From: Paludibacteraceae bacterium
GTDB taxonomy: Bacteria; Bacteroidota; Bacteroidia; Bacteroidales; Paludibacteraceae
Direction: 5' to 3'
NCBI GenBank assembly: GCA_017391525.1
Contig: JAFOYE010000003.1
Span: 42,497 to 106,496, forward strand
Length of the DNA: 64,000 bases
Shown here in pieces: positions 23,033 to 41,683 of this stretch. The first letter of the stretch is position 1, and the number at the start of each line of letters is the position of its first letter. Both the position numbers and the translations under genes were made by a program. A model generated the notes under the pieces. That model did not search any database and had not been told where the DNA came from. It was given only the letters and a program-made list of their open reading frames with translations.

Positions 23033-23180
23033 CTGGAGGCTGAATGTAGAAAAAGTATGTAAACCTTGCATATTTCAAAAAATGTACTTCTAGGGCATCT
23101 ATATCCTCGAAGCTACGTTCGCAAACTGCAGACCATATGCCGAAAAATAACTTCAAAAGTTGAACTTTCGGTCATTTTTC

Positions 23181-23211
23181 TTGCATATGTGCATTTTTTG
23201 TTGTACCTTTG
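23181..23211 (+). promoter_or_regulatory. promoter of ygiQ
   Basis: TTG, N20, TACCTTTG with extended TTGCATATGTGC. The start point near 23218 rules out the upstream in-frame starts and leaves ATG 23231. Confidence 0.75.
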
Positions 23212-23230
23212 CGGCGCAAAGGTCACGCCA

Positions 23231-25123
23231 ATGAGCTCATTAATGGATCTAAAAGCCTATCTGCCTACCACCAAAAAGGAAGTGCAACTTCGTGGTTGGG
23301 ATGAACTAGACATTATCATTTTTAGTGGTGATGCCTATATTGATCATCCTGCTTTTGGAGCCGCCGTCATTGGTCGTGTACTCGAACATGCGGGGTACAA
23401 GGTGGCGATTGTGCCACAACCCGATTGGCGTGGAGATCACCGCGATTTCACCAAGCTGGGCAAGCCTAGACTCTTCTTTGCTATCACCGCAGGTAGTATG
23501 GATTCTATGGTCAATCACTACACCGCTGCCAAACGTCTGCGCTCCGACGATGCATACACCCCTGGAGGTAAAGCGGGTATGCGACCAGATTACTGCACCA
23601 TCACCTATAGCAATATCCTACGACAACTCTATCCAGATAGCCTGATTGTCATCGGTGGAATCGAGGCTTCTATGCGCCGATTGACCCACTACGACTACTG
23701 GTCAGATTCGTTGAAACCGAGCATTCTGGTGGATAGTCAAGCCGATGTACTAGTGTATGGCATGGGAGAGAAACAAGTAGTGGAGATCGCTGACGCTGTA
23801 GATCGCGTTGCTGTAGATCGCCCTGCGGGCTTGAAGATCGCTGCGCTTGAAGAGATTCCGCAGATTGCGTATGTGAGTTCAGGGGTTCAGGAGTTTAGGG
23901 GTTCAGGAGTTCTTATCTCGCCTGAAGGCTCGAACGATTATTCGCAAGCGAATGTTCAGGAGGTTAGGGGTTCAGGAGTGATTGTGTTGCGCAGTCACGA
24001 GGAGGCAATAAAGAGTAAGCGTGTGCATGCGGAGAACTTCCGAGTGATTGAGATCGAAAGCAACAAGATTAATGCGGCGACAATAGTGCAGCCCGTAGGC
24101 AAGCAATATGTGGTGGTCAATCCACCATATCCCACGATGAAATCGGAGGAACTAGATGCCATCTACGATTTGCCATTTATGTATCATCCACACCCTAAAT
24201 ATAAAGATAAACACATACCTGCCTATGAGATGATACGCTTCTCGGTTTGTATGCATCGTGGATGCTTCGGAGGATGTAGTTTTTGTACGATTTCAGCGCA
24301 CCAAGGCAAGCAGATCACCTCGCGTTCACAGGATAGTATTTTGAGGCAAATAGTCATCCTCAAAGACCTGCCTGAGTGGAAAGGATACTTGAGCGACCTA
24401 GGCGGTCCATCGGCGAATATGTACGGCATGCAGGGCAAAGATATGTCGCTTTGTGAGCAATGTGCTCGAGCGAGTTGTCTATTCCCTAAGATATGCAAGA
24501 ACCTTAACCAGGATTTTGCACCATTGATGCAGGTATACAAGCGCGTAGACGCATTACCATACATCAAAAAATCCTTCGTAGGCAGCGGCGTACGCTACGA
24601 CCTAATGAACGATGGATACGGCAGAGAGTTGATACTCAATCACGTGTCAGGACGACTGAAAGTGGCACCTGAACATACGGCTACAAGCGTGCTACAAATC
24701 ATGCGCAAACCTGCATGGGAGCAGTATGAGAAGTTCTATCGCTTCTTTGAACAAGTCAACCGCGAAGCGGGCTTAAAGCAACAAATCATACCATACTTCA
24801 TCTCCTCGCACCCAGGGTGCACCAATGCGGATATGAAGCAGTTGGCGGAGAAATGCAAACAGATGCACTATCGCCCAGAACAAGTTCAGGACTTCACACC
24901 CACACCGATGACATTGGCTACGACGATGTTCTACACAGGACTCAATCCTTACACGATGGAACCTGTGTATGTGGCACGAACCAAAGAGGACAAACAAAAG
25001 CAGAATTCCTTCTTTTTCTGGTGGAAACCAGTAAGAGAGGAAGGTTCCAAAGGTTCTAAAGGTTCTAACGGTTCCAAAGGTTCTAATGGTTCCAAAGGTT
25101 CTAAAGGTTCTGGTAAATATTAG
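23231..25123 (+). CDS. ygiQ: YgiQ-family radical SAM protein, with in-frame repeat insertions
   Basis: 630 residues from MSSLMDLKAYLPTTKKEV; the promoter sets the start. The [4Fe-4S] radical SAM motif is CFGGCSFC within HRGCFGGCSFCTISAHQGK near residue 345, preceded by the YgiQ N-terminal domain (IIFSGDAYIDHPAFGAAVIG). Further conserved blocks are YLSDLGGPSANMYGM, KVAPEHT and PYFISSHPGCT. Reaction unknown. Two oddities: about 30 residues near 216-248 (VQEFRGSG ... NVQEVRGSG) are encoded by the dispersed repeat element and break a conserved stretch, and the C-terminus is a nonamer-encoded GSKGSKGSN run. The M23 peptidase gene follows after 3 bases. Confidence 0.9.
   Translation: MSSLMDLKAYLPTTKKEVQLRGWDELDIIIFSGDAYIDHPAFGAAVIGRVLEHAGYKVAIVPQPDWRGDHRDFTKLGKPRLFFAITAGSMDSMVNHYTAAKRLRSDDAYTPGGKAGMRPDYCTITYSNILRQLYPDSLIVIGGIEASMRRLTHYDYWSDSLKPSILVDSQADVLVYGMGEKQVVEIADAVDRVAVDRPAGLKIAALEEIPQIAYVSSGVQEFRGSGVLISPEGSNDYSQANVQEVRGSGVIVLRSHEEAIKSKRVHAENFRVIEIESNKINAATIVQPVGKQYVVVNPPYPTMKSEELDAIYDLPFMYHPHPKYKDKHIPAYEMIRFSVCMHRGCFGGCSFCTISAHQGKQITSRSQDSILRQIVILKDLPEWKGYLSDLGGPSANMYGMQGKDMSLCEQCARASCLFPKICKNLNQDFAPLMQVYKRVDALPYIKKSFVGSGVRYDLMNDGYGRELILNHVSGRLKVAPEHTATSVLQIMRKPAWEQYEKFYRFFEQVNREAGLKQQIIPYFISSHPGCTNADMKQLAEKCKQMHYRPEQVQDFTPTPMTLATTMFYTGLNPYTMEPVYVARTKEDKQKQNSFFFWWKPVREEGSKGSKGSNGSKGSNGSKGSKGSGKY
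23875..23970 (+). repeat. dispersed repeat element inserted in frame inside ygiQ
   Basis: Words of the GTTCAGGAG/GTTTAGGGG type flank the core GTTCTTATCTCGC-CTGAAG-GCTCGAACGAT (23909-23938), followed by the palindrome ATTCGCAAGCGAAT and more GTTCAGGAG words. The same core lies at 36091-36120 and, inverted, 52062-52108. Confidence 0.8.
25044..25115 (+). repeat. 9-nt tandem array encoding the ygiQ C-terminus
   Basis: Eight nonamers of the type GGTTCYAAA/GGTTCTAAY read in frame as Gly-Ser-Lys or Gly-Ser-Asn repeats, ending three codons before the stop. Confidence 0.85.
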
Positions 25124-28323: not shown

Positions 28324-29022
28324 ATGCGCAAGATTCAAGAAGAAATGGATAAGATTTGGGAACTGAGTCCGGTCTGGGATTTGTTGTCTCCAGGCCAGAA
28401 GAAGTATATCGAAGAGCATACTGAAGTCAAGAAGTACCGTAAGAACGAGGTTATTCACCAGGAAGATGATTCACCAGACTATGTGATGGTGATAGCTTCT
28501 GGTACTATTCGCCTTACCAAAGAGGGTGTAGGACAACGTGTGCAGATTATTCGTTTGTTGAACCGCCGTGATTCGTTCGGTTATCGTAGTGCTGTGGCTG
28601 GTGATAGACACTCTTCTTGTGCAACAGCTATTGAACCTACCGTGGTATATCGTGTAGAGCGCTTGGCGTTCTTGGAGGTGATAAAGCTGAATAATGAGTT
28701 CTGCTTTGGAGTCTTGGAGTTGATGTCTAAGGATTTGGCTATATCAGAGTCTCGAACAGTCAATCTGACCCAAAAGCACATTCGTGGTCGTTTGGCAGAG
28801 ACATTGTTGACGCTCAAAGCTACTTATGGTTTGGATGAAGATGGCGTGACTATCGCGATGTATATGGCGCGTGAGGACTTGGCTAATATGTCCAATATGA
28901 CAACATCTAATGCGATCCGTACATTGTCTCAATTTGCTTCAGAAGGCATTATCAGTTTGGATGGTCGTAAGATTAAATTGCTGGATGAGGCGGAGTTGAC
29001 CCGTATTAGTCGTTTGGGATGA
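28324..29022 (+). CDS. Crp/Fnr-family transcriptional regulator
   Basis: 232 residues from MRKIQEEMDKIWELSPVWDL. An N-terminal cyclic-nucleotide-binding-like beta roll (about 20-130; VMVIASGTIRLTKEGV, DSFGYRSAVAGDRHSSCATA) leads through a long helix to a C-terminal winged helix (about 150-225) with the HTH MAREDLANMSNMTTSNAIRT. No Cys cluster of the FNR type is present, so an iron-sulfur sensor is unlikely. Its stop overlaps the ATG of the PagL-like gene (ATGA), so the two are translated together. Confidence 0.93.
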   Translation: MRKIQEEMDKIWELSPVWDLLSPGQKKYIEEHTEVKKYRKNEVIHQEDDSPDYVMVIASGTIRLTKEGVGQRVQIIRLLNRRDSFGYRSAVAGDRHSSCATAIEPTVVYRVERLAFLEVIKLNNEFCFGVLELMSKDLAISESRTVNLTQKHIRGRLAETLLTLKATYGLDEDGVTIAMYMAREDLANMSNMTTSNAIRTLSQFASEGIISLDGRKIKLLDEAELTRISRLG

Positions 29023-30221
29023 TATTCTCTGTACTTTTGTTGATCAATTCGGTGACTGTTTCTCTGCAAGGAGGAGCAGTGATGCCTGATGGTAAGGTGG
29101 ATAAGGTGGTAGAAGCACCAAAAGAATGGCATGGTCCGGTGTGGGGTGTGGATGTGAATATGGATTTTGCGCCTGATTGGGAAGCTCTGCAACATTGGAA
29201 TGACGCCACAGTAGGTGTGGGCTTGACTTATTGGAATATGGGTCATGAGCAGTTGGGACATGCGATAGCACCTTATATATATATGAACGTACCGTTCGTA
29301 AAGAAACCGCATTTTGAGTTGGGAGTTCGACCGGGTTTAGGTGCAGCATTTATGACCAAGACCTACCGTAATACTGTGCCCGATGGGCATATGTTTGTGG
29401 ATGTTGTGGGAGCCAATCAGTGTGTGGGTAGTGTGACTAATTTGTATTTTCCTGAGGAACTGTATATGAATTTTCCGTTGATCAATGGTTGGAGTATTGG
29501 TCTGACGGGAGGATGGTATCATATTAGTAATGGTAGTATTCGACAACCTAATTCCGGATATAATATTTTCGGTGGCGAATTGGGTGTGAGGAAATTGATG
29601 GAAGATGATGAGGCGAAGAGGCGAAAAGGCGAAGAGGCGAAAGACGAAAGGCGAGAAGGTATTGGGGATAAAAAATGGTCTGTTGCTATAGCTGGCACGA
29701 TGGGTGGACGACAGGTGTATTATCGTGATCAACAGTCTTTTATGGTAGGGTCAATGCATGCTGTGGCGTATTGGCATGCACATAATGTTTTTCGTTTAGG
29801 CGGTGGTGTGGATGTGTTTTATGATGGCGCTTATGTGCAGCGCAAAACATATTTCGGTAAGACTAATTTGTCATTGGCGCAACCTGGTGACTGTTGGCGT
29901 GTGGGCGTGAGTTTGCAACCAGAGTTTGTGGTGGGTAACTTTACGGCTGGTCTACATGTGGGAGCTTATATGTACGACCCAGTCAAAGCTTTGGAGCCTC
30001 AGTGGAAAGAGGATGGGTTGCCACAGGAGAGATTGGATAAACCGGTGTTCTATGCTTACGATTTACTCAATGCAGGTAGTGCGGGTTATCCTGATGGTTG
30101 GTTGTATACAGAAGTGGTGCTGCGCTACCATCTGCCATGGCATGTGTTTGTTCAGGCTATGATGAAGAGTCACTTGACCAAGGTGGAGTTTGTGAGTTTG
30201 GGAATTGGCTTCTGGTATTAG
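29019..30221 (+). CDS. PagL-like outer membrane protein (lipid A deacylase/acyloxyacyl hydrolase family)
   Basis: 400 residues. A hydrophobic N-terminus and many amphipathic strands suggest an outer-membrane barrel. The segment GGWYHISNGSIRQPNSGYN near residue 165-183 resembles the PagL active site (His-x-Ser-Asn), so removal of a lipid A acyl chain is plausible. PagL itself is about 170 residues, and here a second barrel-like half follows. Between the halves, residues about 199-216 (AKRRKGEEAKDERREG) are encoded by an in-frame 8-nt repeat and look like an insertion in a loop. Coupled by 4-base overlap to the Crp-like gene. Confidence 0.75.
   Translation: MIFSVLLLINSVTVSLQGGAVMPDGKVDKVVEAPKEWHGPVWGVDVNMDFAPDWEALQHWNDATVGVGLTYWNMGHEQLGHAIAPYIYMNVPFVKKPHFELGVRPGLGAAFMTKTYRNTVPDGHMFVDVVGANQCVGSVTNLYFPEELYMNFPLINGWSIGLTGGWYHISNGSIRQPNSGYNIFGGELGVRKLMEDDEAKRRKGEEAKDERREGIGDKKWSVAIAGTMGGRQVYYRDQQSFMVGSMHAVAYWHAHNVFRLGGGVDVFYDGAYVQRKTYFGKTNLSLAQPGDCWRVGVSLQPEFVVGNFTAGLHVGAYMYDPVKALEPQWKEDGLPQERLDKPVFYAYDLLNAGSAGYPDGWLYTEVVLRYHLPWHVFVQAMMKSHLTKVEFVSLGIGFWY
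29612..29662 (+). repeat. in-frame 8-nt array inside the PagL-like gene
   Basis: GGCGAAGA, GGCGAAAA, GGCGAAGA, GGCGAAAG and two decayed units. It encodes the charged segment between two barrel halves and is related to the GGCGAAA/GGCTAGA words found between genes. Confidence 0.8.
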
Positions 30222-40595: not shown

Positions 40596-41015
40596 ATGAC
40601 TATTGCTATTGATTTTGACGGCACTATCGTTACTCATGCGTATCCGGCTATTGGAAAACCTATCCCATTTGCGATTGATACGCTCAAGAAACTTCAACAA
40701 GAAGATCATCATCAGCTCATCCTTTGGACTTGTCGTGAGGGAGAGTTGTTGCAGGAGGCTATTGACTACTGTGCTTCACGTGGATTGGAGTTCTATGCTG
40801 TGAACTCTAATTTCCCAGAAGAAACTTCGGATATTGTGCGTGCACGCAAGTTGGAAGCTGACCTTTTTATCGACGATCGTAATCTAGGTGGTATACCTGA
40901 TTGGGGAGTGATCTACCAAATGATTCATTCTGGCAATCAATTCAAACCTGCACCAACAAGTGGAGTGGTAGAAGAACCTCAACGCAAAAAAGGACTCTTT
41001 GGTCTATTTGGATAA
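40596..41015 (+). CDS. BT0820-type HAD-like phosphatase
   Basis: 139 residues from ATG 40596 (MTIAIDFDGTIVTHAYPAIG). The nucleophile motif DFDGT is at residues 6-10. HQLILWTCREGELLQEAIDY supplies the Thr motif, and the acidic motif is LFIDDRNLGG near 97. This is the compact Bacteroides BT0820-like HAD subfamily of unknown substrate. The 150 bases before it contain short inverted repeats (for example CCTCCGACGGCAAGGAGG) and no gene. Confidence 0.87.
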   Translation: MTIAIDFDGTIVTHAYPAIGKPIPFAIDTLKKLQQEDHHQLILWTCREGELLQEAIDYCASRGLEFYAVNSNFPEETSDIVRARKLEADLFIDDRNLGGIPDWGVIYQMIHSGNQFKPAPTSGVVEEPQRKKGLFGLFG

Positions 41016-41150: not shown

Positions 41151-41683
41151 ATGAAACTGCGCAAAATTGAACCTTCTGATCTCCCGTTCTTGTTTCAATG
41201 GGAGAACGATGCCACCATGTGGGCTGATTCGGATACGCATAATCCGCTCTCTCGCCACGACTTGCACCAGTATATCGAGAATACTACGGGCGATATCTAC
41301 CGTGATGGTCAACTGCGTTTGATCATTGAAGATTCTCAACTCTCAACTCTCAACTCTCAACTTTCAACTTTCAACTTTCAACTAAAATTGTGGGTTGCAT
41401 CGACCTTTTTGATTTTGATGCGCGCAACCGCAAAGCGGCTATAGGTATGTATATCGCTCCTGACGCACGAGGCAAGGGAGTAGGGAAGCAAGCGGTACAA
41501 TTATTAGAGGACTATGCTTTTGGGTTCTTGCATCTACGTATGATCTATGCCATCATCAGTGTGCATAATACAGCCTGCTCGCATATCTATGAGCAGATGG
41601 GTTATACGCCATCCTCTGTGCTCAAGGACTGGACCCTTGAAGGAGACGCTATCCTTTGGCAGAAGTGTAGTTCAGGAGTTTAG
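41151..41683 (+). pseudogene. GNAT-family N-acetyltransferase broken by a heptamer repeat (possible phase-variable gene)
   Basis: The first frame from ATG 41151 reads MKLRKIEPSDLPFLFQWEND ... LRLIIED; the rest (VGCIDLFDFDARNRKAAIGM, IAPDARGKGVGKQAVQLLED, and NTACSHIYEQMGY) is in another frame from 41384. Between GAT (41331-41333) and AAA (41384) lie exactly 50 bases: seven 7-nt units (four TCTCAAC, three TTTCAAC) plus one T. Removing them joins IIED to KIVGCIDLF, a normal GNAT strand, so the array is an insertion and the 50-base length gives the frameshift. One more heptamer (57 bases) or two fewer (36) would restore the frame. The acetyl-CoA motif RGKGVGKQA is intact. Confidence 0.85.
41334..41382 (+). 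repeat. 7-nt array (7 units) inside the GNAT gene
   Basis: Four TCTCAAC followed by three TTTCAAC in perfect register. The reverse complements GTTGAGA/GTTGAAA are the words that flank the dispersed core after galE and after the second giant gene. Confidence 0.9.

Follow-up and report, generated by a model that had tools for sequence, protein, structure and literature searches.

Is a gene that has been thrown out of frame by an array of short tandem repeats a switch in its off position, or the product of an accident? The question is raised by a locus in a 64,000-nucleotide stretch of DNA (the window) from a member of the Paludibacteraceae, an uncultured gut bacterium, in which heptamers interrupt the gene of a GNAT N-acetyltransferase. 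An initial annotation, made from the sequence alone, had proposed a phase-variation switch. Here we compare the gene, its repeat and the genomes around it with those of related bacteria.

Results

One acetyltransferase gene with an interrupted frame

The array occupies positions 41334..41383 of the forward strand. Upstream of it is the N-half of a SpeG-like GNAT N-acetyltransferase (41151..41333, +, 61 codons, MKLRKI...LRLIIED), and downstream a C-half of 99 codons (41384..41680, +, KIVGCIDLFDFD...) that contains RGKGVG, which we take to be the acetyl-CoA motif, and is read in a different frame. The initial annotation had described a 50-base array (7 x 7 + 1) between two acetyltransferase halves, out of frame because 50 mod 3 is 2, and the sequence agrees on both points. 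The array is, however, less pure than was claimed, with two blocks of unit variants instead of a single pure unit: four copies of TCTCAAC, three of TTTCAAC and a final T. The frame of the N-half continues through the array to a stop at 41442-41444, giving a product of 97 amino acids without the RGKGVG motif, and the frame of the C-half, which is the -1 frame relative to it, is open upstream no further than 41330. The repeat leaves all three frames open on the forward strand and has a TGA in one frame of the opposite strand. As in a contingency locus, the number of units in an in-gene tandem array thus sets the frame. The 20-base core of the array has five overlapping matches in the window and none in 100 dinucleotide-preserving shuffles.

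When both halves were run as separate queries against profiles, the C-half matched Acetyltransf_3 (PF13302, profile positions 66-138, E 1.1e-11) and Acetyltransf_1 (PF00583, 2.2e-13), in each case above the cut-off. The N-half matched Acetyltransf_3 at profile positions 3-48 with E 0.0065 and 17.6 bits, under the curated cut-off of 25.4. Taken as a profile match together with an acetyl-CoA motif, membership of the GNAT class is strong on the side of the C-half and weak on that of the N-half. Since both match Acetyltransf_3 and intact relatives encode both in a single frame, comparison of the predicted proteins confirms that they are one GNAT gene, whose frame is interrupted by the array.

The enzyme is SpeG-like. 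Among PDB entries, an intact relative matches 5wif_A best, which is labelled spermidine N1-acetyltransferase (E 3.3e-14), and the NCBIfam model that scores best in three intact relatives bears the same name. Membership of the SpeG equivalog itself was rejected, as these three score 53-56 bits against a cut-off of 218. A drug-resistance GNAT was considered as well, and we do not call the gene a resistance gene because AAC(6') models score far under their cut-offs. Upstream of it lies a BT0820-family HAD phosphatase (40596..41015, +; NF046079 on 40599-41012, 196 bits against a cut-off of 165). By motif search, such a phosphatase precedes the GNAT gene in 22 of 65 relatives, including all seven at loci L039-L045.

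Both halves remain constrained

The N-half is 92-97% identical to the same half in the nearest relatives (L039-L045). Ratios of dN to dS were computed against nine relatives and were estimable in six of nine for the N-half and in five of nine for the C-half, the others being saturated at silent sites. For the N-half they amount to 0.01-0.02 in the five estimable of the seven relatives L039-L045 and to 0.04 against L048, and for the C-half to 0.03-0.06 in its five estimable comparisons; all are rough, as in many pairs dS approaches or exceeds 1 or is not estimable. After its divergence from L042, the window gene accumulated 7 replacement and 27 silent changes, against 8 and 35 in the intact L042 gene, with 8 sites undecided. 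The claim that the rest of the gene carries no other lesion is thus supported by ratios of 0.01-0.06 wherever these are estimable. To judge from these substitutions the frame break is recent or reversible, as both halves are still constrained and a C-half that had long been untranslated should differ. Among the estimable pairs, the nearest relative at silent sites is L039 for the C-half (dS 0.65) and L042 for the N-half (dS 1.08), which may be a weak hint of recombination near the insert.

The frame is kept across the genus

In a first draw, 91 of 101 genomes of the window's genus had a match to the gene. At E 1e-10 a match was found in 158 of 178 genus genomes and in 66 of the 68 near-complete ones; 18 of the 20 genomes without a match are under 90% complete. 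Frames were seen in 152 of the 158 matching genomes. Two of these were set aside as cut by contig ends (in G025, locus L018 begins just before the C-half; in G094 the match lies at base 133 of the contig), which leaves 150 judged. The frame is open in 149 of them, each time over at least 162 codons, and the sole interrupted one is the window genome. The N-half was read directly and found in frame at 28 of the 29 loci L010-L038 and 64 of the 65 loci L039-L103 (overlapping sets), the two loci without a readable N-half being L018 and L056 at contig edges; in the remaining genomes its frame was deduced from the length of the open frame, and the weak matches, of 34-45% identity, may represent other GNATs. 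On and off states are thus not both common, as they would be in a contingency locus: one state in 150 is off, in a comparison between species with one genome per species, in which a mixed on/off population would not show.

The same turn receives different repeats

Of 120 named loci, 80 were retained in a search with the C-half, and 65 of these (L039-L103) are titled Paludibacteraceae, Bacteroidales or similar; these are mostly metagenome-assembled genomes (MAGs), from ruminants, horse or pig where a host is stated. Relatives differ strongly in the turn between LRLIIE and GCIDLFD. Across 107 measured rows, which come from two overlapping sets, it has 5-7 residues in 49 and 8-33 in the others.

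Three relatives carry the window's own type of array at this place, all in frame: two units plus one base in L041 (15 nt, one mismatch), five plus one in L045 (36 nt, one mismatch) and eight plus one in L042 (57 nt). The prediction that 57 or 36 nt would restore the frame is thus matched by L042 and L045. The expected variability in length also stands, with 2, 5 and 8 units between species; the phase-variation switch that had been built on it is not supported, as only one of 150 judged genus genomes is interrupted. Other relatives have different repeats at the turn, again in frame: TGTCAAC heptamers in L043 and L044, CAATCAG heptamers in L077, CTCTAAC-type repeats in L062, L073, L076 and L090, a 15-mer (AATGACCAAATGGTA) in L075, L084 and L093, and a 16-mer (GTCAGCGAAGCGGTCT) in L055 and L063. 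A tree of both halves (65 rows, with L056 left out because its contig ends within the gene) requires at least 25 changes of insert state and at least 19 between presence and absence; the minimum of 25 is a rough guide, since 35 of 62 inner branches are open and insert states were labelled by eye. Seen in these alignments, the turn is a recurrent target of differing short repeats that keep the frame. It probably lies at the surface of the protein, to judge from how an intact relative aligns with SpeG chains and from GNAT topology, in which the array site would be a surface turn.

The insert tends to match its genome

Exact-pattern counts were made for five of about nine insert families in 51 genomes, namely the window genome (G000) and 50 of the 65 relatives, of which 30 have an insert and 20 have none; copies in the GNAT gene were subtracted. 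The insert at the GNAT turn tends to be a repeat that its genome also carries at other places. Of the 14 carriers tested, 10 have the repeat of the turn in abundance elsewhere. The window genome ranks first for TCAACTY (40 after removal of the GNAT copies), and in the same ranking of genomes the carriers of the other families stand as follows: G105 is first (21) and G106 third (8) for TGTCAAY, G115 and G111 are first and second for the 16-mer, G123 is first for CAATCAG (9, the next genome having 8) and G121 ties for first place for the 15-mer (21). A permutation of turn repeat against genome abundance gave P 3e-5 for the 51 genomes and 8e-5 for the 14 carriers alone. In the other four carriers the repeat is rare elsewhere (TCAACTY: 1 in G103, none in G107 and G127; 15-mer: 2 in G126), and some genomes are rich in a repeat without the matching insert (G110, 15-mer, 21; G123, TCAACTY, 29).

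A repeat family dispersed through the genome

The core pattern has 45 matches in the window genome, and the 20 stretches around them merge to 25 TCAACTC/TCAACTT loci, 17 outside predicted genes and 8 inside, the GNAT gene included. One genome thus holds many arrays of one unit, as in dispersed short tandem repeats. Nor is the array special to the GNAT gene, seven of these 25 loci lying in other conserved frames. Those seven belong to the families DHH/DHHA1, CobW, 2-hydroxyacid dehydrogenase, serine dehydratase, methylmalonyl-CoA mutase, bacterial topoisomerase and glycosyltransferase-28; for proteins of these matched families we use PdxB-like, TopA (topoisomerase I) and MurG, which we presume to be the proper names. 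As the core pattern reads the same backwards, a reversed-pattern control was uninformative. The GNAT array is the longest uninterrupted one among 31 segments in the fetched stretches (50 nt, the next 43); if one interrupted unit is allowed, a run at L131 (71 nt) exceeds it.

In-gene loci make up 8 of 25 for TCAACTY in G000 and 3 of 13 in G104, 4 of 8 for TGTCAAY in G106 and 7 of 13 in G105, all 9 fetched (of 10) for the 16-mer in G115 and 6 of 8 in G111, and 7 of the 12 fetched (of 21) for the 15-mer in G121; these counts are upper bounds, because genes were taken as open reading frames of at least 100 codons picked by length. A Pfam scan of 20 of these repeat-bearing proteins found a family in 19. 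Without exception, the 22 heptamer arrays inside genes are in frame and on the strand free of stops. This is no independent support, since three units on the other strand would end open frames; of the 22 in-gene cases of the 15-mer and 16-mer, 3 are on the opposite strand.

The 16-mer of G115 and G111 (GTCAGCGAAGCGGTCT, loci L199-L214) was in-gene at 15 of 17 fetched loci and occurs twice within one M20 peptidase-like protein at L199; it contains GCGAAGC, which forms a very stable DNA mini-hairpin. The idea that intergenic arrays hide further split genes gained no support from four same-strand arrays out of the 17 outside genes: among the 8 open reading frames beside them, 6 have a family and no pair resembles two halves of one gene.

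Repeats in MurG, TopA and other proteins

Orthologues of MurG in 12 genomes differ at one internal loop, which has TCAACTC heptamers in G000 and G104, AATTCAA-type repeats in G105 and another insert in G102, G106 and G107, and is plain in G131, G103, G101, G109 and G123. TopA, aligned for 11 of the 12 genomes (G107 yielded only a paralogue), contains sequence of the TCAACTC type in G000 and G104; in G101, G102, G103, G105 and G106, sequence of the TGTCAAC type lies nearby. The repeat-bearing segment of TopA (L153-L161) is of about the same length in relatives without TGTCAAC repeats. The MurG loop of G000 is one residue shorter than that of G131. In some of the MurG and TopA cases a variable loop seems to have been overwritten rather than enlarged by an insert, as the TopA loop hardly changes in length and the MurG loop of G000 is the shorter one. 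In the PdxB-like protein, both heptamer families are found at the same place, one in G000 and the other in G105.

The window holds further coding repeats. An 8-mer/16-mer tandem repeat at 23875..23912 (+; TRF, translation) falls within the Radical_SAM_N domain (PF08497, residues 65-393) of a radical-SAM gene (23066-25120; Radical_SAM_N, DUF3362). This gene also has an in-frame repeat at 23784-23821 and a (GSKGSN)n tail encoded by a 9-mer array at 25041-25111. An octamer repeat (GAGGCGAA) lies at 29610..29659 (+; TRF, PF09411, translation) in the open frame of a PagL-like gene (29019-30218). Of 23 tandem-repeat stretches listed for the window, 15 are outside predicted genes, many of them with units of 7-11 bases.

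Discussion

We think that the interrupted GNAT gene is probably a recent slippage allele in a repeat-invaded loop and not a dedicated switch. The lineage has a TCAACTC/TCAACTT heptamer family dispersed at about 25 loci, one copy of which occupies the turn of the SpeG-like acetyltransferase. Because the repeat is open in all three frames, unit numbers that keep the frame, such as those of the relatives, would merely lengthen the turn. The number in the sequenced strain does not fit, and its protein ends soon after the array. We infer that slippage brought about this out-of-frame number and that the off state is accidental, not adaptive.

That the array is instead maintained as an on/off switch of the acetyltransferase through slipped-strand mispairing, as in neuO, is less likely than a slippage allele and in our view unlikely. 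A heptamer array with three open frames and a unit number that varies between species would suit a switch, and a contingency locus would be expected to look like this, a long array in a gene that may be dispensable. However, a maintained switch would let one expect off states to be common in relatives, and only the window genome is off; a frame so strongly kept across the genus argues against it. Moreover, short arrays of the same family occur in MurG and TopA, which are essential proteins and in which an off state should be lethal, and the best curated models of intact relatives are polyamine and sugar-nucleotide acetylases, all under their cut-offs. The closest parallel, as far as the available part of its description goes, is neuO itself, a phase-variable O-acetyltransferase with AAGACTC heptamers in its 5' region, for which 42 of 64 complete genomes show the off state (PMC13001214). 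By our computation its repeat also has three open frames in the sense direction, and in both genes a heptamer array in an acetyltransferase coding sequence sets the frame by its unit number; the likeness is one of arrays. The neuO array, however, sits in the 5' region and that of the GNAT gene in a mid-protein turn whose gene is open in 149 of 150 judged genomes, although the neuO figure compares strains and ours species.

We consider it quite improbable that the gene is dispensable to the strain and that an uncorrected frameshift marks the first step of its permanent loss. The interruption itself and the 20 of 178 genus genomes without a match would fit such a course, but 18 of those 20 are less than 90% complete and 66 of 68 near-complete genomes have a match. 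Nor is there a second lesion, and the share of replacements on the window branch (7 of 34) is no higher than that of the intact L042 (8 of 43). It is very unlikely that the unit number is an artefact of assembly or consensus calling in this draft, probably metagenome-assembled, genome. Tandem arrays are prone to such errors, the genome is in 41 contigs and 90.9% complete, and most relatives named by title are MAGs; common short reads, however, exceed an array of 50 bases. That the halves are joined by frameshifting during translation or transcription, at the array or beyond it, is scarcely credible. The frame of the C-half is indeed the -1 frame, but by eye no canonical -1 slippery heptamer is seen at the end of the array, and the 149 other judged genomes require no recoding.

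Beyond the slippage allele, we tentatively propose, at somewhat less than even chances, that in this genus short tandem-repeat families are active genome colonisers, which would invade surface loops of conserved, even essential proteins and overwrite and displace one another at the same sites. Selection for frame would turn them into lineage-specific peptide inserts, and the interrupted GNAT gene would be one such event in mid-change. Small repeated DNA inserted in frame into genes whose proteins are likely functional has a counterpart in the Rickettsia palindromic elements (RPEs), as far as the accessible descriptions go. As with these, GNAT and MurG have in-frame inserts in conserved genes that are absent or different in orthologues, and TopA may be a case of overwriting rather than insertion. 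RPEs are palindromic, though, whereas the heptamer units of the GNAT type are tandem and not inverted, and we presume that the arrays are shorter than RPEs.

Dispersed heptamers are described for TAACTGA in Beggiatoaceae, cyanobacteria and five Bacteroidetes (PMC4679880) and for GGGAATC and GGGGA(C/T)T in Xanthomonas and Nostoc (PMC4692102). In the parts of these two papers available to us, the units studied differ from TCAACTC/TCAACTT. The likeness extends to many short arrays per genome, mostly intergenic both in Beggiatoaceae and in the window genome (17 of 25 loci), and to some in-gene copies, with MurG in one case. In-gene TAACTGA copies of Beggiatoaceae are, in the same portion of text, mainly at the protein periphery (PMC4679880); here, in contrast, several copies are internal to conserved enzymes and recur at the same loops of different species, and the repeat family differs between lineages. 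The accessible literature on dispersed and in-gene repeats holds such related cases, and within it we did not find recurrent lineage-specific repeats in the same loops.

These observations advise caution, as a single out-of-frame array is insufficient for calling phase variation. The switch story is weak, and the part worth following is the recurrence of lineage-specific repeats in the same loops. Repeat-derived peptide inserts arise repeatedly at the same protein loops, often from a family that is common in the genome concerned. They offer a natural series for studying how short repeats spread through genomes and how proteins tolerate new sequence, a series that also bears on how the slippage of coding arrays is restrained in essential genes.
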